From Gemmatimonadales bacterium (lineage in GTDB: Bacteria; Gemmatimonadota; Gemmatimonadetes; Gemmatimonadales; GWC2-71-9), in the NCBI GenBank assembly GCA_019637315.1, contig JAHBVU010000015.1, positions 1 to 64,000 of the forward strand: a stretch of 64,000 nt of DNA, read 5' to 3'. The stretch's first letter is position 1. Every line of letters starts with the position of its first letter. The notes beneath the pieces are model-generated. The model was not told the DNA's origin. It ran no database searches and was given only the letters and a program-made list of their open reading frames with translations. Made by a program: the position numbers and the translations under genes. Below, one piece after another: positions 10,917 through 19,447 of this stretch.

Positions 10917-12893
10917 CTAGCGCAGGACTCGTTCGAACAGGATGCCGCGCGCCCGCCCGTTGCCGGCCTCGAAGCCGGTCACGTTGCCTTGCGCATCGCG
11001 GCGGAAGGCCACACTGCTCACCGGCATCGTCCCGGAGAAATTGTCGCCGCTGGTGTGCGTCAGCGCAGCTGGCCCGAAGCGGCGATGCCGAATGACGAGC
11101 TGGTCCTTCTCCACGCTCAGGTCGTAGTAGGTTTCCAGCTCTTCGCTGAAGTAGCGACCTGCGAAGCTGGCAAGGTCCACCTTCTGCTCTTCGACGCGCT
11201 TGCCCGGGTGTTCGCCACTCTGGTGGAAGGTGATGCCCTCGACCGCTCCGTCCGCGGCGGTGTTGAAGGTGATCGAGGCCGGCGCGCCAACCACTTCGAA
11301 CGAGGTCGTCGAGGTGGGCCGGAGCGGCAGCGGCGGCTGACCGGGAACCTGGAGGCGGAGCTGACCGCCCTGCTGCTCGACGGTCAGCTGCATATCGCCG
11401 AGCGTGGTCATCTGATACTTGCCCGCGTAGCGCCGCAAGGTCGCGGGTGGAACCGTGACGCTTGAGCCTGCAGTCGCGGTCGGGCGAGGTGCCGCCGTCA
11501 TGTGCTGACCGAAGTATGCATCCGCCACGACGCCGGCCAGGCCGCCCGGCACGCCCTGATAGTTGCTGAACACGACATACCCGGCGTCGAGGTCAGGGAA
11601 GTACACGAACGTCGAGCTGTGGGCGATGTCGTTGCCGCCGTGCTGCCAGCGTTTCACACCGCGGGTCGAGTCGATGAAGATGCCGTAGCCGTAGTTCGTG
11701 GCCGCGCCGCTGTTGAGCACGAACGACGTCGTCATCTCCTTGATGACGGCCGGCCCGCCCAGGGCGCCGGTCTTGAAGTTGTGCATCCACTTCGCCATGT
11801 CTCCCGGCGTCGTATAGATGCCGCCCGCGCCCGCGGAGCCATGGAGATCGCGCACCTCGCGGAAGCCGTAGGAGCCTGCCTGGTAGCCCACCGTTCGGTT
11901 CGGAATGATCTGGCCCGGACTCGCGCGAACCCAGGTCTTCGTCATGCCCAGCGGCAGGAATACCTCGTCACGCATCCACTCGGCGAAGGGGCGGCCGGTG
12001 ACGCGCTCCACCACGATCGTGGCCAGGCTGAAGGCGGAGTTGTTGTAGTTGAACTCCGCGCCGGGAGCGTTCTGCAGCGTCGGCTGCCGGTTGAGCACCT
12101 TGATGACTTCATCCGGCGCGATGTAGTCACCCTCCATCACCTGACGCCCTTCGATGAGCAGCAGATTGATGAACTCGCGGTACCCGGTGGTGTGGGTCAG
12201 CAAGTGTCGCAGGGTGATCGTCGTGCCGAAATCCTTGAGCTCGGGAATGTGCTTCCGAACGTCGTCGTCCATGGAGAGCTTGCCTTGTGACGCCAGCACG
12301 GCAAGCGCAAAGCCCGTGAACTGCTTCGAGGTGGAGCCGATGTTGGTCGGCGTCTCGGCCGTGAACGGCAGGCTGTTGGTCAGGTCCGCAGCGCCATATC
12401 CCTTGACGAACGTCAGCTTGCCGCTCTGAATCACGCCGACCACAGCGCCCGGGGTGTCCTTGTACAATTGCGCGGCGGCCTGGTCGACCTTGCCTGCCGG
12501 CGTCGTTGCCGCTGCCTCGGAACGAGTCAGCTGGACCCGCACGGCGCCGCTGGTGCCGGCCGTCGCGGGCGCAATCGCGATGATATACCGGCCCGCGACA
12601 CTGTCCGTCGCGAAGGCAAACGCCTCAGGGCCGCCGCGTCCAACCCGGGCTCCTCGAAACACCTGGTTGCCCGTCGGGCCCCTGACCGTCACCGTGGCGT
12701 CCACCCCGTCCTGATCGATTCGACCGGCAACGAAGTGCCGTGCCGGCAGGTCGAGCTCGTATCGGACGGTATCGTTGGCCGCGAGCGTCGCAGGCACGGG
12801 CTTGCCGACCTGAAGCCGCGTGGCTTGCTGAGCGTTAACTCCGTTCGCGCCCAGGAGAACGAGCACGACACTACCAGTGATGCAGGCTTTCAT
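10917..12893 (-). CDS. Secreted S12-family serine hydrolase with N-terminal beta domain
   Basis: 658 residues from ATG 12893, preceded by GAGGAA and followed by a signal peptide (SVVLVLLGANGVNAQQ). Residues ~25-125 form a PPC-like beta-sandwich (DTVRYELDLPARHFVAGRI). The hydrolase domain follows with SxxK at S187-T-S-K190 (NIGSTSKQFTG), YNN in FNYNNSAFSLA, HGG in WQHGGNDIAHS. A C-terminal DUF3471-like domain (LRRYAGKYQMTTLGD) comes last. The N-terminal module suggests carbohydrate or cell-envelope attachment. An in-frame extension to 13169 lacks a ribosome site. Confidence 0.88.
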   Translation of the reverse strand: MKACITGSVVLVLLGANGVNAQQATRLQVGKPVPATLAANDTVRYELDLPARHFVAGRIDQDGVDATVTVRGPTGNQVFRGARVGRGGPEAFAFATDSVAGRYIIAIAPATAGTSGAVRVQLTRSEAAATTPAGKVDQAAAQLYKDTPGAVVGVIQSGKLTFVKGYGAADLTNSLPFTAETPTNIGSTSKQFTGFALAVLASQGKLSMDDDVRKHIPELKDFGTTITLRHLLTHTTGYREFINLLLIEGRQVMEGDYIAPDEVIKVLNRQPTLQNAPGAEFNYNNSAFSLATIVVERVTGRPFAEWMRDEVFLPLGMTKTWVRASPGQIIPNRTVGYQAGSYGFREVRDLHGSAGAGGIYTTPGDMAKWMHNFKTGALGGPAVIKEMTTSFVLNSGAATNYGYGIFIDSTRGVKRWQHGGNDIAHSSTFVYFPDLDAGYVVFSNYQGVPGGLAGVVADAYFGQHMTAAPRPTATAGSSVTVPPATLRRYAGKYQMTTLGDMQLTVEQQGGQLRLQVPGQPPLPLRPTSTTSFEVVGAPASITFNTAADGAVEGITFHQSGEHPGKRVEEQKVDLASFAGRYFSEELETYYDLSVEKDQLVIRHRRFGPAALTHTSGDNFSGTMPVSSVAFRRDAQGNVTGFEAGNGRARGILFERVLR

Positions 12894-13282
12894 GATGATT
12901 CCTCGGGAGACGGCGCCCCAGGCGGTGGGGAGGTTGCCATGGTTTGTATACAATTTGAGGTGCAAACTGCAACAGCGCAACCGGGGGCAGTCTGACACGC
13001 CCGTTGCCGGCTTACTCGCCCTGTCTCGTGGTCCGACGCCAGTCTCTGAAAAAGAAGACCCCCAGGAGCCTGGGTGACCCCGGCGCATTCGTACCAGGCA
13101 GACGTTGTTCGTGTACCTCGATCTGCTGTTGGGATCAACTTCATCGACGGGTAAGGGCAATCGTCTCATACTTCATAGGCGCTGCGAACGCACCGACTGG
13201 TCGAGGTCGTCCGGATCGGCGTTCGTGTGTTGAGCAGGGCGTCGCGAAGGCGCCCTTCGATTCTTACCAGCGGAGGCACATC
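12894..13282. promoter_or_regulatory. Divergent intergenic region with a small palindrome
   Basis: 389 bases without a convincing gene, separating the hydrolase at 10917-12893 from the GlcG-like gene at 13283. It must hold both promoters. A perfect 10-base palindrome TTGTATACAA lies at 12944-12953, about 50 bases before the hydrolase start, in a locally AT-rich patch; it could be an operator or part of a -10 region. Nothing else stands out. Confidence 0.4.
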
Positions 13283-14131
13283 GTGAGGGGACGTACAGGG
13301 GCTGCACTTGCCACGGCCATACTGGTTGTGGCCACCACCGTTCAGCCGATGGAAGGGCAGCAGGGGGCGCCGGCAGCCGCCAGGATCACGCTCGACGAAG
13401 CCCGGACCGCGGTGGACGCGGCCGTAGCGGAGGCGCGCCGCAACGGTTGGAACCTCGCCTTCGTGATCAGCGACGCCGAGGGCACCCCGATCTACCTGGG
13501 TCGGATGGACGGAGTGCCGAAGCGGAACTATGACGTTGCCATGAACAAGGTCAACACGGCCATCACCTCCGGGATGCACACCGCCGAGTACGTCGCGGGT
13601 GTTCGGGCCGGTACCGTCAAGGCAATCGAGGGGGCGTTGCCGTTCGAGGGGGGCCTGCTGTTGCGGCGGGGCGGGCAGCTCGTCGGCGCGTTCAGCGCTA
13701 GCGGTGCCAGCGGTGCGGACGATGCCCGGGCCGTGCGCGCCGGAATGGCGGCCATTGGAATCGAGGCGACCCCCACGCCGGGGGCCGCGGTGGCGTCAGC
13801 ACCGACGCCGACGCCGACTGCCCCAGCGGCCACCGCACCAGCTGCAGCGCAGGCAGCGGTGCGTGTTCCCGTGGAAGTGCTCGATCGGTACGTCGGTGAG
13901 TACGAGCTGGGACCCGATGCCTTTGTCGTGGTACGTCGCAAAGGCGATACGCTGACGGGGCAGCCGCCGGGGCAGCCGGAGTTTGTCCTCGAGCCGATCT
14001 CACAGACCCGGTTCAATGTGCGGGGGACCTCGGTGAAGCTGGAAGTGGAGTTCGTCACCGATGCTGCGGGCGCGATGTACAAGGTGCTGCACCAGAACGG
14101 TCAGGAAATGCGGGCGCCCAAGCGTAAGTGA
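13283..14131 (+). CDS. Exported GlcG/HbpS-like (DUF336) protein fused to a DUF3471-like domain
   Basis: 282 residues from the GTG at 13283; GGAGG at 13272-13276 with 6-base spacing decides this start. Signal peptide about residues 1-25. A GlcG/HbpS domain follows (LDEARTAVDAAVAEARRNG, SDAEGTPIYLGRMDGV, GALPFEGGLLLRRGGQLVG), then a Pro/Ala/Thr linker (PTPTPTAPAATAPAAAQ). The C-terminal ~85 residues (LDRYVGEYELGPDAFVVV) are of the type normally found behind S12 hydrolases. GlcG/HbpS relatives bind heme or cofactors; function here is unknown. Confidence 0.8.
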   Translation: MRGRTGAALATAILVVATTVQPMEGQQGAPAAARITLDEARTAVDAAVAEARRNGWNLAFVISDAEGTPIYLGRMDGVPKRNYDVAMNKVNTAITSGMHTAEYVAGVRAGTVKAIEGALPFEGGLLLRRGGQLVGAFSASGASGADDARAVRAGMAAIGIEATPTPGAAVASAPTPTPTAPAATAPAAAQAAVRVPVEVLDRYVGEYELGPDAFVVVRRKGDTLTGQPPGQPEFVLEPISQTRFNVRGTSVKLEVEFVTDAAGAMYKVLHQNGQEMRAPKRK

Positions 14132-14143
14132 TCCGCTCGGCGT

Positions 14144-15223
14144 TCAGTGTCCGTGCGAAGGCGGGGCGGTGCGATAGTGCTCGCGCAGCAGGTCGCGACC
14201 GAAGTCGCCGTCGAAGTCGCGCCAGACGGTGTGGATGTGGTTGGCGCCGTTCTGAGTATTGTCGTACTCGACGAGAAAGGTCGGCCCCTGGATGCGGTAG
14301 TAGTGCCCCGCGCCGCGCTGGGTCGAGCCCGCCCAGGCGAACGCGACCCGGCCGAAGTCGGTTCGCTCGAGAGAGGCGCGACGACGCGCAGCAAGCGGCT
14401 CAGCCATCCGGTCGAGATAGAGATCGAGCAGCCGGACCAGGATCGCGGCCTGGTCCGGCCGGAGCTCGGTGGCGCGGATCCCGATCGGCGCGAGCGGATC
14501 GACCCGCGCGGCATTGCCGGTCACAATATCGCTCGGCGCCACCGCCGCGATCAGCGCGACGCGACGCTGGCGCTCGTCGAGCGACAGAATGAGCTCACGG
14601 CCGATGTCCTCCTCCGCAGCCAGCGCTCGGAGCCCCCGCCGTGTCCCGCTCCGCACTTCGGCCGGGTTCGCGCCCAGGAACGCCGGAGCGGTCGCGATCA
14701 GCGAGTCCCGGACGAGCGTGAAGTTGAGGGAGAGGTGGTGACCTTCGGCTCGAAAGCCCCACGGGGTCGTATCCGAGGGTGTGCCAAAGATGCTGAAGAA
14801 GTACAGCTCCGGGTCGCGCACCCGCGGATTCTCGCCCATCTCACGCAGCACGAGTTCAAGCTCGATGATCGTACTTGCCGTGAGGTAGCCGCGCTTGCTC
14901 AGGCCCACCCGGAGAATACCGCGCGCCAGGCCCTGCTGCTCCGGGGTCATCTCCTTGAGCGACAGGCCCCGCCGCGTCCGCGGTACGAAGTGCCAGTTGA
15001 GGCGCTCGGCGTCCTCGAACGCGAAGACCGCCCTCGAGCGTTGCCCCGGTTCGAGACTGGCGAGGAACGAGTCCGCCGCCTGCCGCAGGTCCGCAAACTC
15101 AGGTACGTGTACAGGCCCGGTCGGTTCAGATGCGGCCCCGCCGCGACGGTCGGCGGAGGCGAAGACGCCGCCCGCGATCGTCAACAGAAGGATGAACGTG
15201 GCCGCCCGTCTGCCGCTGCCCAT
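14144..15223 (-). CDS. DUF3500 family exported protein
   Basis: 359 residues with an N-terminal signal segment (RAATFILLLTIAGGVFAS). The body matches the DUF3500 pattern: FAFEDAERLNWHFVPRTRRGLSL early, an EGHHLSLNFTL block mid-protein and a closing HIHTVWRDFDGDFG. Conserved His and Asp residues suggest a metal site, but the family has no established biochemical role. It lies 15 bases downstream of the aldo/keto reductase at 15239 on the same strand, so the two are probably co-transcribed. Confidence 0.8.
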   Translation of the reverse strand: MGSGRRAATFILLLTIAGGVFASADRRGGAASEPTGPVHVPEFADLRQAADSFLASLEPGQRSRAVFAFEDAERLNWHFVPRTRRGLSLKEMTPEQQGLARGILRVGLSKRGYLTASTIIELELVLREMGENPRVRDPELYFFSIFGTPSDTTPWGFRAEGHHLSLNFTLVRDSLIATAPAFLGANPAEVRSGTRRGLRALAAEEDIGRELILSLDERQRRVALIAAVAPSDIVTGNAARVDPLAPIGIRATELRPDQAAILVRLLDLYLDRMAEPLAARRRASLERTDFGRVAFAWAGSTQRGAGHYYRIQGPTFLVEYDNTQNGANHIHTVWRDFDGDFGRDLLREHYRTAPPSHGH

Positions 15224-15238
15224 ACCGCCTCCCTGCGT

Positions 15239-16186
15239 TTACGCCGGCAGCGCCTCCACGTGTGCAATCATCCGCTTCCGCATGGCCGCGTCCGGGAGTC
15301 GACCCACCGCCGCCCCGAGGTTGTCGGTCATGTTCGCGGCGCGGCTGGTGGCCGGCGTGATGACGGTGACCCGCGGATCGGCCGCGACGAACTTGAGGAA
15401 GAACTGACCCCAGGTATGCGCGTCGAACTCCTTGGCCCACTCCGGCACGGGCCGACCCGCGACCCGCTTCCACAGCCGAGTGCGGCCGAACGGAAGGTAG
15501 ATCAGCGTGCCGATGCCGCGGTCCGCTGCTGCCGGAAGAATGCGCTCCTCGACGCTGCGGTTGTCGATGGCGTAGTCGATGCCGATGAAGTCGAGCGGCT
15601 CGCTCCGCATCAGGCGCTCCATCTCCTCGTACTGCGATTTGGAGGTGCTCGTCACGCCGATGTAGCGAATCCGTCCCGCCTTCTTCACCTCTTTCAGGAC
15701 GCCGAGCTGGGTCGGCATATCGATTGGGCCGTGGACCTGGATCAGGTCGACCGGCCGCTTGCGCAGCCGCTTGAGCGAGGTCTCGACCTGCTCCCGCGCT
15801 CGCGCCGCGTCCGCAGGCGCGTTCGGGCCCTGGGCCACGTTCATCTTGGTCGCCCAGAAGACCTTGTCGCTGATGCCGAGTTCCGCTGCAATGTCACCGG
15901 CAACCTGCTCCGACGAGCCGTAGGAAGGCGCGGTATCGAATACGGTGGCGCCCTTGTCGGTCATGGCGCGGAAGACCTCGCGCAGTGCGGAGCTGTCCTC
16001 GCTCCGGGCGACCTGCGCGAACGTGGCGGAGCTGCCCAGTCCGATCAGCGGCAGACGCTCGCCGGTGGACGGCACGGCCCGGGTAAGGAGTTGCTGGCTA
16101 CTGAGGGCGGCAAGCAGGCGCGGGTTGAGGGCCAGCGCGGCGCCCGCGCCCCCCGTGATTCCCAGCCAATGGCGTCGATTCATCAT
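15239..16186 (-). CDS. Tat-exported aldo/keto reductase
   Basis: About 316 residues from ATG 16186 (second ATG at 16183). The N terminus NRRHWLGITGGAGAALAL is a twin-arginine export signal, unusual for a classical cytosolic AKR but common in this type. The catalytic set is intact: Asp and Tyr in VFDTAPSYGSSEQ, Lys in WATKMN, His in IQVHGPID. The C-terminal VTVITPATS fits the nucleotide-binding region. It should reduce a carbonyl with NAD(P)H after folding with cofactor. It is paralogous to the gene at 18440. Confidence 0.88.
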   Translation of the reverse strand: MMNRRHWLGITGGAGAALALNPRLLAALSSQQLLTRAVPSTGERLPLIGLGSSATFAQVARSEDSSALREVFRAMTDKGATVFDTAPSYGSSEQVAGDIAAELGISDKVFWATKMNVAQGPNAPADAARAREQVETSLKRLRKRPVDLIQVHGPIDMPTQLGVLKEVKKAGRIRYIGVTSTSKSQYEEMERLMRSEPLDFIGIDYAIDNRSVEERILPAAADRGIGTLIYLPFGRTRLWKRVAGRPVPEWAKEFDAHTWGQFFLKFVAADPRVTVITPATSRAANMTDNLGAAVGRLPDAAMRKRMIAHVEALPA

Positions 16187-16417
16187 GGCGTCTCCAGGAC
16201 GGTCGGTGATGCGAAGAGTTCGATATTCAGTATGGAACGGGCTTGCCCATCCGGCAAGAGAACGGGTACCAAGTCCAGGCATGGCGGTACGAAGAGCGGA
16301 ACGGTGAGTACGCCTCGGCCGGGCGTACGGTTAGCCGCGCGACAACAGGCGCGAGAGAGCATGAGACGGGCGTGGCCAGAGGCTTCGCAAGCGAAACACA
16401 CTGGGGTATTCTGACCA

Positions 16418-17545
16418 ATGCCAGAGATCACGGAACGAAGCGGCACGGTACGCTTTCGCGGGCGCGGCTGGACCGTTCTTGCCTGGTGGCTGCTCGCGTG
16501 GAATGCCGCCGTTCCGATCCGCCTCGTCGGCATGCTCGCCGGCCCTGCGCGCAGTCCCGCCCCCATGGACGAAGCCGTCGTGATGCTGATCCTGGATCAG
16601 ACGTCCTGGGCCCTGGCGACCTACCTGATGTACCACCTCGCGCTTCGGGCTCGTCACCGTCCGCTCCGACAAGTGCTGACAGTCCTCGGCGTGCTGGCCG
16701 TTCCGCTCATGGTGCTGCGGCATTGGGTCTACACCGCCTCACTCAGTACTCTGCTTGGCTGGCCGGCGCCGCCGCCCATGCGCGCCCTCTGGTTCCAGGG
16801 GCCGCTCTATCTGTTCCTGCTGATTGCGGCCGCTGCGCTTGGCCTGCTGGTGGTGTATATGCAGCGCGAGCGCGACAACGCCGTGCTCCAGGCCAACCTG
16901 CAGGCCGAGCTCGCCTCGGCGCGGCTGCAGACGCTCCGGCTCCAGCTCAACCCGCACTTCCTGTTCAATGCGCTCAACTCGATCGCGAGTCTCGTTCCCT
17001 CCGATGCGGCCAAGGCCGACACCGCCATCGCGGCCCTCTCTTCCTTTCTGCGCGCCTCGCTGTCCGTGACGCGCGGTGAAGAGACGACCCTGGAGAACGA
17101 GCTTCGCCTCGTTGATGCCTACCTGGAAATCGAAGCCCTCCGGTTCGAGTGGCTGACCGTCGATCTCGACGTGCCGGACCCGCTGCGCTATGCCTGCGTG
17201 CCGGCGTTCGTGCTGCAGCTCCTGGTGGAGAACGCGATCCGCCACGGGTTGGCGCCGCGCCGCGCACCGGGGCGAGTCCACCTTGCCGCGCGGCGTGATG
17301 GCGACGCGCTGGAGCTCTGCGTGACTGACGACGGCGTCGGGCTCGGCGCCGAGCTGAGCGCGGGGTCGGGTGACAGCTCGCTGGGCATCGGCTTGCAGAA
17401 CGTGCGAGCGCGGCTGGCCCAGCTGTATGGCTCCGGGGCGACCCTGACGCTCGGGCCAGCCGATCCGCAGGGGACCGTCGCGACGATGCGCATTCCCTAT
17501 CGCATCTGCCCCGCCGAACCTGTGCTAAGGGGAGCTGACGTATGA
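16418..17545 (+). CDS. LytS/AlgZ-type sensor histidine kinase
   Basis: 375 residues. Four hydrophobic segments occupy residues ~18-150, followed by a short coiled linker (RERDNAVLQANLQAELASARL). The His_kinase domain has LQLNPHFLFNALNSIA with phospho-acceptor H180. The HATPase_c domain has N272 in LLVENAIRHG, then DDGVGL and GIGLQNVRARL. It lacks an extracellular sensor domain, so the signal is probably sensed in the membrane. The stop overlaps the start of the response regulator by 4 bases. Confidence 0.93.
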   Translation: MPEITERSGTVRFRGRGWTVLAWWLLAWNAAVPIRLVGMLAGPARSPAPMDEAVVMLILDQTSWALATYLMYHLALRARHRPLRQVLTVLGVLAVPLMVLRHWVYTASLSTLLGWPAPPPMRALWFQGPLYLFLLIAAAALGLLVVYMQRERDNAVLQANLQAELASARLQTLRLQLNPHFLFNALNSIASLVPSDAAKADTAIAALSSFLRASLSVTRGEETTLENELRLVDAYLEIEALRFEWLTVDLDVPDPLRYACVPAFVLQLLVENAIRHGLAPRRAPGRVHLAARRDGDALELCVTDDGVGLGAELSAGSGDSSLGIGLQNVRARLAQLYGSGATLTLGPADPQGTVATMRIPYRICPAEPVLRGADV

Positions 17546-18336
17546 CGGCTCTTCGGGTGCTGATCGTGGACGACGAGCCGCTGGCACGTCAACGGTTGCG
17601 CCACCTCCTGGCCGAGCTGCCTGGTGCGGAGGTCGTCGGCGAATGTGGTGACGGTAGCGATGCGGTCAGGCTGATTCGAGACCTCGATCCTGACGTCGTC
17701 CTCCTCGATGTGCAGATGCGCGAGACGGGCGGCTTTGCGCTCGTCGATGCGATTGGCGCGGACCGGATGCCGCCGGTCGTCTTCGTCACCGCGCACGACC
17801 AGTTCGCGCTCCGGGCCTTCGAGGTCAGCGCGGTCGACTACCTGCTCAAGCCGGTTCAGACCTCCGAGCTGGCTCGCGCGCTGCACCGCGCTGCGGAGCG
17901 CCGCCGGGCCACGAATCCGGCGCTGCATCGCAACCTGCGCGCCCTGCTGGAGACGGTGCGGACCATGCTCGGTGAAACGCCTGGTGCGCAACTGCCGGTG
18001 CCGCTCGGGTCGATCAGTGCGGCCGGGTCAACGGTCACCTTTTCCAACGTCGTCGTCGACCTGCGCGCTCACACGGTCCACCGGGACGGGGTCGGTGTCG
18101 CGCTCTCGCCCCGAGGGTACGCCCTTCTGGTGACGCTCGTCACGCGGCCGGATGAGGTGATCACCCGGGCGCAACTGCTGCGGGAGATCTGGGGCTACTC
18201 GTCCGACGTGATGTCCCGCACGGTCGACATGCACATCATGGAACTGCGCCGTAAGCTCGAGGCGGACCCGGCGGACCCGCGCCACTTTCTCACCGTCCGG
18301 AAGATCGGGTATCGCTTCACGCCTGGAGGCTCTTGA
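17542..18336 (+). CDS. Response regulator: LytT-like receiver with OmpR-type winged helix
   Basis: 264 residues. The receiver begins RVLIVDDEPLARQRL, has phospho-acceptor D56 in VVLLDVQM, Thr in FVTAHDQFALRAFEVSAVDY and K103 in LLKPV; this wording is typical of LytT/AlgR regulators. The output domain is instead OmpR/PhoB-like (ALSPRGYALLVTLVTRPDEVITR, then MSRTVDMHIMELRRKLE and VRKIGYRF). It should be phosphorylated by the overlapping kinase and bind DNA as a dimer. The following Tat-AKR at 18440 is a natural candidate target. Confidence 0.93.
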   Translation: MTALRVLIVDDEPLARQRLRHLLAELPGAEVVGECGDGSDAVRLIRDLDPDVVLLDVQMRETGGFALVDAIGADRMPPVVFVTAHDQFALRAFEVSAVDYLLKPVQTSELARALHRAAERRRATNPALHRNLRALLETVRTMLGETPGAQLPVPLGSISAAGSTVTFSNVVVDLRAHTVHRDGVGVALSPRGYALLVTLVTRPDEVITRAQLLREIWGYSSDVMSRTVDMHIMELRRKLEADPADPRHFLTVRKIGYRFTPGGS

Positions 18337-18439
18337 CGGAACCTGAACGGAATCTTGACGGACGCTCGTTGCGCTGATCGGGACCCCAGACCCACAATCC
18401 AGGATAACGTACTGTCGGGAACCTCAACCTGAGCGCACC

Positions 18440-19447
18440 ATGATCAACCGCCGAGAGTTCTTGGGGGTCACCGCCGGCGCCGGCGCTACGATGGCGCTGA
18501 CACCGGAGCTGCTGCGCGCCGTCCAAGCTCTGCAGGGCCAGGGTGCCCTGATACACCGAGCGATTCCATCGACCGGTGAGACCGTCCCGATGGTTGGGCT
18601 GTCGTTCTCGAATCACGTCTCGTGTTCGGATCCCGCCGCGCTCAAGGAGGTCGTCAAGACGTTTGCCGACGGTGGCGGCAGGGTCTTCGACCTGATGCAT
18701 GGCAACGCAGCCGCCGAGCAGTTCCACGCCACGGTGGCCAACGAACTCGGCATTCAGAACAAGCTCTTCTGGTCGACCCGGGGCTCTCCGTCGGGCGGCC
18801 CGGGTGGCCCGCCGGTGCACAACGCCGCCAACGCGAGAGCGCAGATCGAGACGACACTGGCGCGGCTCAAGGTGTCGAGGATCGACCTCGTCATGGTCAA
18901 CCCCATAGCCGACCCCTCGTACATCGGTGTGTTGCAGGAGGCGAAAAAGGCGGGGCAGGTCCGGTACATCGGCGCGCAGGTCATCAGCGACAACGCCTAT
19001 CCCCAGCTCGAGGCCGCCATGCGCAACGAGCCGATCGACTTCATCGGGGTCGACTACGATATCGGAAATCGCGACCGCGTCGAGGACACCATCCTGCCGC
19101 TGGCTCAGGAGCGGAAGATCGGCGTGATGGCCTTCTTTCCGTTCGGCAACGCTGGAGGAGTCAGTTGCGCAGGTGGCACCAGACTCTTCCAGCGCGTGGC
19201 CAGCACGCCCCTTCCCGAGTGGGCTGCCGGCTTCGGCGCCACGACGTGGGCGCAGTTCTTCCTCAAGTATGTCATCAGCCACCCGGCCGTTACGGTCGCG
19301 CGGGTGGGCACGACCAAGCCGGCGCACATGCTCGACAACCTGGCGGGTGGCATCGGTCGCCTGCCTGACGAGGCGACCCGGAAGCGGATGGCGGCGCTGA
19401 TCGATGCGCTGCCTCTGCCACCGCCGCCAGCGCCCAGGCGCCAGTAG
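18440..19447 (+). CDS. Tat-exported aldo/keto reductase paralogue lacking catalytic residues
   Basis: 335 residues with Tat signal NRREFLGVTAGAGATMAL. It aligns along its length with the AKR at 15239, but three of four catalytic residues differ. FDTAPSYGSSEQ becomes FDLMHGNAAAEQ (Tyr to Asn), WATK becomes WSTR (Lys to Arg) and VHGPID becomes VNPIAD (His to Asn). The Asp is kept, and the barrel and C-terminal region remain (VTVARVGTTKPAHM). It is likely a binding or sensory pseudoenzyme, or acts by different chemistry (inference). It sits 103 bases after the response regulator. Confidence 0.85.
   Translation: MINRREFLGVTAGAGATMALTPELLRAVQALQGQGALIHRAIPSTGETVPMVGLSFSNHVSCSDPAALKEVVKTFADGGGRVFDLMHGNAAAEQFHATVANELGIQNKLFWSTRGSPSGGPGGPPVHNAANARAQIETTLARLKVSRIDLVMVNPIADPSYIGVLQEAKKAGQVRYIGAQVISDNAYPQLEAAMRNEPIDFIGVDYDIGNRDRVEDTILPLAQERKIGVMAFFPFGNAGGVSCAGGTRLFQRVASTPLPEWAAGFGATTWAQFFLKYVISHPAVTVARVGTTKPAHMLDNLAGGIGRLPDEATRKRMAALIDALPLPPPPAPRRQ

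Follow-up and report, generated by a model that had tools for sequence, protein, structure and literature searches.

Why would a bacterium keep, beside a two-component signalling pair, an exported aldo-keto reductase (AKR) stripped of most of its catalytic residues? The question is raised by a locus within a 64-kb stretch of DNA from a Gemmatimonadales bacterium (hereinafter, the window), for which a preliminary description had reported two Tat-exported AKR paralogues on either side of a two-component system, the first with the catalytic Asp, Tyr, Lys, and His, and the second with Tyr replaced by Asn, Lys by Arg, and His by Asn while retaining the Tat signal and the fold. All four genes are present in this arrangement, and the aligned residue table reads D84, Y89, K114, and H152 in the first paralogue (AKR1) and D, N, R, and N in the second (AKR2). 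The features of the locus are:

14144..15223, minus strand: DUF3500 protein (PF12006, 3.4e-88), 15 bp downstream of AKR1
15239..16186, minus strand: AKR1, Tat-type exported aldo-keto reductase (PF00248, 5.7e-32) with intact D84/Y89/K114/H152
16418..17545, plus strand: LytS-type membrane histidine kinase (PF06580 His_kinase and HATPase_c)
17542..18336, plus strand: response regulator, a LytTR/BtsR-like receiver fused to an OmpR-type winged helix; overlaps the stop codon of the kinase gene
18333..18365, plus strand: candidate operator, three 11-bp direct repeats (TTGACGGAACC/TGAACGGAATC/TTGACGGACGC), the first base lying 107 bp ahead of the AKR2 start
18440..19447, plus strand: AKR2, exported pseudo-AKR (PF00248, 1.3e-17) with D84, N89, R114, and N154

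The open reading frame of AKR1 spans positions 15239-16282 on the minus strand, with the Tat signal (MMNRRHWLGIT...) running from 16186; the more likely start is at 16186 or 16183, rather than at 16282, because the RR motif is common to the homologues. AKR1 and AKR2 are about 49-50% identical and, judging by the alignment and the tree discussed below, are old paralogues; a recent tandem duplication of AKR1 yielding a local duplicate pair is ruled out by the tree, where AKR1 does not branch as sister to the AKR2 clade. The DUF3500 gene is the probable operon partner of AKR1 and lies outside the AKR2 unit. Besides the window (14144-16186), the source genome contains a second adjacency of a DUF3500 gene with an exported AKR gene, on contig 19 and in divergent orientation (L003:3322-5654).

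AKR2 scores 64.2 bits against PF00248 (cut-off 24), and its AlphaFold2 model (mean pLDDT 87.7) is a (beta/alpha)8 AKR barrel, for which the best match among solved structures is AKR11C1 (1ynp; Z 29.2, with 265 residues superposed at an rmsd of 2.8) and AKR14A1 is also among the closest. The twin-arginine signal with its hydrophobic stretch (MINRREFLGVTAGAGATMAL) includes the plain motif NRREFLG; the match to the TAT_signal profile (PF10518) is weak, at 20.3 bits under a 22.7 cut-off, and the RR pair is kept across the whole clade. Thus, AKR2 is predicted to be exported via the Tat pathway. The Asp-Tyr-Lys-His tetrad is incomplete, with Tyr and Lys absent from all 14 clade members, and because these two residues are missing, we strongly infer that the AKR chemistry has been lost. 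A loop deletion (see below) and the C-terminal motif, TTK in AKR2 vs TSR/TSK, further suggest that the ability to bind NAD(P)H and reduce carbonyls was lost. AKR2 also lacks the C-terminal DUF3471-like domain that is found in most of its relatives. This domain is present in most exported pseudo-AKRs as well as the intact AKR of contig 27 (L001, L002, L004, L005, L006, L008), and it terminates two other genes in the window, 10917-13169 (beta-lactamase type) and 13004-14131 (HbpS-like).

Whether the loss of the catalytic residues is conserved was addressed by collecting homologues through a scan of public genomes together with the relatives of the source genome and the phylum, which yielded several dozen exported AKRs of this subfamily. 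The tetrad (DYKH) is retained in nearly all of them, a few distant relatives carrying one or more changes (DYKW in L082 and L089; also L088 and L051). Tyr and Lys are missing in 14 proteins from 10 genomes, mostly of Gemmatimonadota: AKR2 of the window, a tandem pair from contig 28 of the source genome, two proteins from Roseisolibacter sp. H3M3-2, other Gemmatimonadota proteins, and one from a bin labelled Planctomycetota. In the tree, these pseudo-AKRs form a single clade (SH-aLRT 100) nested among DYKH relatives, that is, they have one origin. All 12 core members show the residues D-[NS]-R-[N/P/G], and the two earliest-branching members deviate, with D-W-Q-S in contig 28 copy b and D-T-R-H in the Planctomycetota protein; given these two patterns, His probably disappeared only after Tyr and Lys had, with a separate loss in copy b. 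Branch lengths within the clade are ordinary, the end branch of AKR2 (0.18) equalling the median, and the NG86 dN/dS values, which are rough given the GC-rich third positions, fall between 0.07 and 0.37 in seven pairs and reach 0.56 in one, which places the pseudo-AKR form under purifying selection. Because the catalytic loss is common to relatives in ten genomes, the AKR2 clade is a real protein family, not a case of gene decay; the isolated substitutions that the preliminary description had named as the mark of decay are not what the homologue alignment contains.

The changes extend well beyond the tetrad. Four residues of the beta1-alpha1 loop (GSSA in AKR1) are deleted in all clade members, and the core clade carries an insert of ~9 amino acids after beta7. 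Every full-length core member (11 of 11) has Cys62 and Cys243, a pair that is absent from the corresponding columns of all 50 intact relatives. Among the 19 columns with fixed differences, 12 map to the catalytic face of the barrel, at the C-terminal ends of the strands (hypergeometric p about 4e-6), and none to the opposite face. The retained fold, the purifying selection, and the clustering of the changes together indicate that the clade kept the AKR scaffold while the pocket was rebuilt and then fixed. Possibly, a Cys62-Cys243 disulfide closes or reshapes the AKR2 pocket; the conserved D84, H87, N/S89, R114, and H96 could form a new catalytic site.

The kinase encoded between the two AKRs scores 81.3 bits against PF06580 (cut-off 25.2). 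Its N-terminal part contains about four hydrophobic segments (three clear in a hydropathy scan and one more discerned by eye), with predicted outer loops that are all short, and produced no Pfam match at an E-value of 0.001, so that no 5TMR-LYT sensor region was detected. The DNA-binding domain of the regulator is an OmpR-type Trans_reg_C domain (PF00486, 8.2e-25), and its receiver is closest to that of BtsR. The LytS-type kinase and the regulator of the preliminary description are both there, and the regulator is not a LytTR protein, given its Trans_reg_C output domain and the absence of a LytTR DNA-binding domain. LytTR domains are found in the partner regulators at the contig 28 locus and on Roseisolibacter contig 677. 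The chimeric architecture is shared by an 81% identical orthologue in genome G301 and a 45% identical relative in G086; a LytTR/BtsR-like receiver joined to an OmpR-type winged helix beside a LytS-type kinase is seen in three genomes (window 17542-18336, L141:8894-9682, and L142:966-1718), and this combination is a recurrent domain swap.

The candidate operator sits in the 103-bp gap between the regulator gene and AKR2 and consists of repeats with the core TTGACGG. No other period-11 triple in the 64-kb window scores as well, and none of 2000 shuffled versions of the intergenic sequence equalled it. In G301, a similar element (TTGACGGAACGTGAACG) precedes the kinase gene by about 140 bp. The 17-base core (16 specified positions) occurs exactly once in the whole source genome and once in that of G301, and no further site with up to two mismatches was found in either genome; by our own arithmetic, about 0.001 exact matches would be expected by chance in G301. 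We infer that the repeats are the binding site of the regulator, which would make AKR2, immediately downstream, its direct target in the window. The G301 genome (89% complete) yielded no match to AKR2, and no AKR gene comes after its operator; because of this placement upstream of the kinase, the operator may serve primarily for kinase autoregulation. Co-regulation of AKR1 was rejected, the operator being absent from the AKR1/kinase intergenic region, where the best match has 8 mismatches among 18 positions. Neither a sigma-70-like promoter nor terminators were found between 16150 and 18480. An upstream motif common to all clade members was sought and not found, with the triple repeat absent from L136, L127, L128, and L135. 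The regulatory claim is accordingly confined to the window because other loci carry LytTR regulators and lack this operator.

The preliminary description had proposed a co-occurrence analysis of the pseudoenzyme with the kinase and regulator, and LytS-type pairs indeed recur beside the clade in other genomes. The source genome (3.91 Mb, 95% complete) encodes only two PF06580 kinases, both beside clade members; the second shares its strand with the contig 28 pseudo-AKR copies, from which it is separated by 4.7 kb that include kelch and TonB-receptor genes. On Roseisolibacter contig 677, a kinase, a LytTR regulator, and a pseudo-AKR are contiguous in that order, and on contig 9 of the same genome, an intact AKR and a pseudo-AKR flank a kinase/regulator pair, reproducing the layout of the window in another genus. 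A PF06580 kinase is found within 9 kb at 7 of the 12 pseudo-AKR loci, including three distant links that we counted as weak (6.0 kb in G233, 6.9 kb in G164, and 8.6 kb in G306). Narrowing the range to 6 kb leaves 5 of the 12, vs 1 of the 33 intact-AKR loci (Fisher p 0.003), the latter being the mixed Roseisolibacter locus. Of the five pseudo-AKR loci where the 9-kb range contains no such kinase, four come from contigs shorter than 8 kb; the clade member of G252, on a long contig with the nearest PF06580 kinase 43 kb away, is a true negative. Because the clade-adjacent kinases are mostly 30-45% identical to one another (two closer pairs reach 64% and 86%), the association is a repeated one and does not reflect a single cassette passed on vertically. 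Genes for exported hydrolases, kelch proteins, and TonB receptors surround several clade loci. One tandem pseudo-AKR locus (L135/L008:1781-4203) is near a class-I HisKA kinase and an OmpR-type regulator, not a LytS-type pair. Another tandem pair (L136:987-3402) follows kelch and TonB-receptor genes, all in the same orientation; its second copy shows D-W-Q-S and lacks the Cys pair. In two genomes, a near-identical C-terminus of an MFS-type transporter is encoded beside pseudo-AKR genes (L124:7620-8966, and upstream of 5706 in L135; RETLFTVVSR.DKYKSKAFIDTFVYRGGDVVGAQVEG).

With a probability of roughly 0.6, we read AKR2 as a conserved exported binding or scaffold protein that is not a reductase and that is the transcriptional output of the adjacent kinase/regulator pair, which probably switches it on. 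Under this reading, an envelope or membrane signal would stimulate the kinase, which would phosphorylate the regulator; the OmpR-type winged helix of the latter would bind the three repeats just upstream of AKR2, such that AKR2 is made upon kinase stimulation. In the cell envelope, AKR2 would then act as a ligand-binding or scaffold protein incapable of NAD(P)H-dependent aldo-keto reduction, its old pocket closed or reshaped, possibly by the Cys62-Cys243 disulfide, and AKR1 would be the active-type paralogue, divergent from the kinase gene. Of the two interpretations offered in the preliminary description, a regulated reductase pair and a ligand-binding partner of the kinase, the word "regulated" gains support from the operator-like triple repeat that recurs near the orthologous G301 pair, and "reductase pair" is weakened by AKR1, which has no operator and is not a close sister of AKR2. 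An obligate partnership with the kinase is unlikely as well: G301 has the orthologous pair with no match to AKR2, therefore the pair does not appear to need AKR2, and we favour a regulated output over an obligate sensor partner.

Other explanations deserve comparison with this reading. Under one of these, which we consider unlikely, AKR2 is an input, an extracytoplasmic ligand-binding accessory that docks on the outer loops of the kinase and gates it, by analogy with the solute-binding proteins that serve some kinases. A kinase with short predicted outer loops and no recognised sensor domain would suit this role, as would the proximity of clade members to LytS-type kinases of several lineages, and the intact and dead AKRs around the kinase pair on Roseisolibacter contig 9; conversely, G301 does have the orthologous kinase and regulator (the latter 81% identical) and no AKR2 match, some clade loci have no such kinase nearby, and the operator points to AKR2 as a target. 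An autoregulated accessory AKR2 would fit both the operator and an input role. A more elaborate version, less probable still, casts the pseudo-AKR family as a detachable redox- or ligand-sensing extracytoplasmic receptor for sensor-less LytS-type kinases, with Cys62-Cys243 as a possible redox switch and autoregulation by the same pair.

Just as unlikely as the simple input role is a re-invented enzyme, with a new cofactor-free site (D84, H87, N/S89, R114, H96) on the same barrel. The replacement residues are themselves conserved, mostly on the catalytic face, and the hydrolase, kelch, and TonB-receptor surroundings of several clade loci are congenial to an enzyme; yet the Cys pair, the loop deletion, and the insertion might equally shut the pocket, the His position is occupied variably (N, P, G), and no enzyme with such a set of residues is known to us. 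Somewhat more doubtful is a coincidental neighbourhood in which the repeats serve another purpose, for example, kinase autoregulation, left in place by a rearrangement. The 6-9 kb distances at three loci are indeed weak links, the linked kinases do not form one orthologous group, and the G301 operator is upstream of the kinase; against coincidence, there is immediate adjacency in two genera, both PF06580 kinases of the source genome are beside clade members, and the operator falls within the 103-bp gap just upstream of AKR2. Finally, AKR2 as a degenerating copy of AKR1 would account for the loss of three catalytic residues and the DUF3471-like domain, but hardly for an open frame, residues shared across 10 genomes, monophyly, dN/dS below 1, uninflated branches, and a shared Cys pair. 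Simple decay is ruled out for the clade by its monophyly, dN/dS, and shared derived features and, given the end branch of median length leading to the window copy, is highly improbable for AKR2 itself.

Compared with known systems, AKR2 shares the TIM barrel, the position of the catalytic Asp, and family membership with the AKR superfamily (PF00248; 1ynp AKR11C1, 4ast AKR14A1, 4exa PA4992), and differs in the lack of the catalytic Tyr, Lys, and His, the cofactor-loop deletion, the new Cys pair, and the Tat-type signal. The Kv-beta (AKR6) subunits of potassium channels (1exb/3eau), which are among the matches of the AKR2 model (Z about 26.7), place the AKR fold in a membrane-signalling setting as well. 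Kv-beta retains the catalytic residues, binds NADP(H), and is cytoplasmic, whereas AKR2 is predicted to be exported and has lost the catalytic residues. PhoB/OmpR-type operators consist of tandem 11-bp repeats, and the window shares direct repeats at 11-bp spacing beside a winged-helix regulator gene, although the candidate operator comprises three repeats with the core TTGACGG. The BtsS/BtsR and YpdA/YpdB LytS/LytTR systems (PMC10653868, PMC5552118) have a PF06580-type kinase in common with the window; BtsS is described as a 7-transmembrane pyruvate receptor. By contrast, the window kinase has about four hydrophobic segments and the regulator, despite a receiver closest to BtsR, has an OmpR-type output domain.

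In the part of the literature that was covered, no exported clade of AKR pseudoenzymes was described in connection with LytS-type kinases, and nothing linked aldo-keto reductases with LytS and histidine kinases; a search on AKR and pseudoenzyme produced an unrelated result only, so that AKR-fold pseudoenzymes appear to be little described. Taken singly, the AKR fold, export by the Tat pathway, and kinases of the LytS type are familiar, and what seems to be new is the exported pseudo-AKR clade linked to these kinases. The regulator domain swap, a LytTR-type receiver with an OmpR-type output, is accompanied by a matching candidate operator that two genomes share. Because this conserved exported clade arose once, can be recognised by defined sequence features, and is repeatedly found near signalling genes, its role is directly testable.
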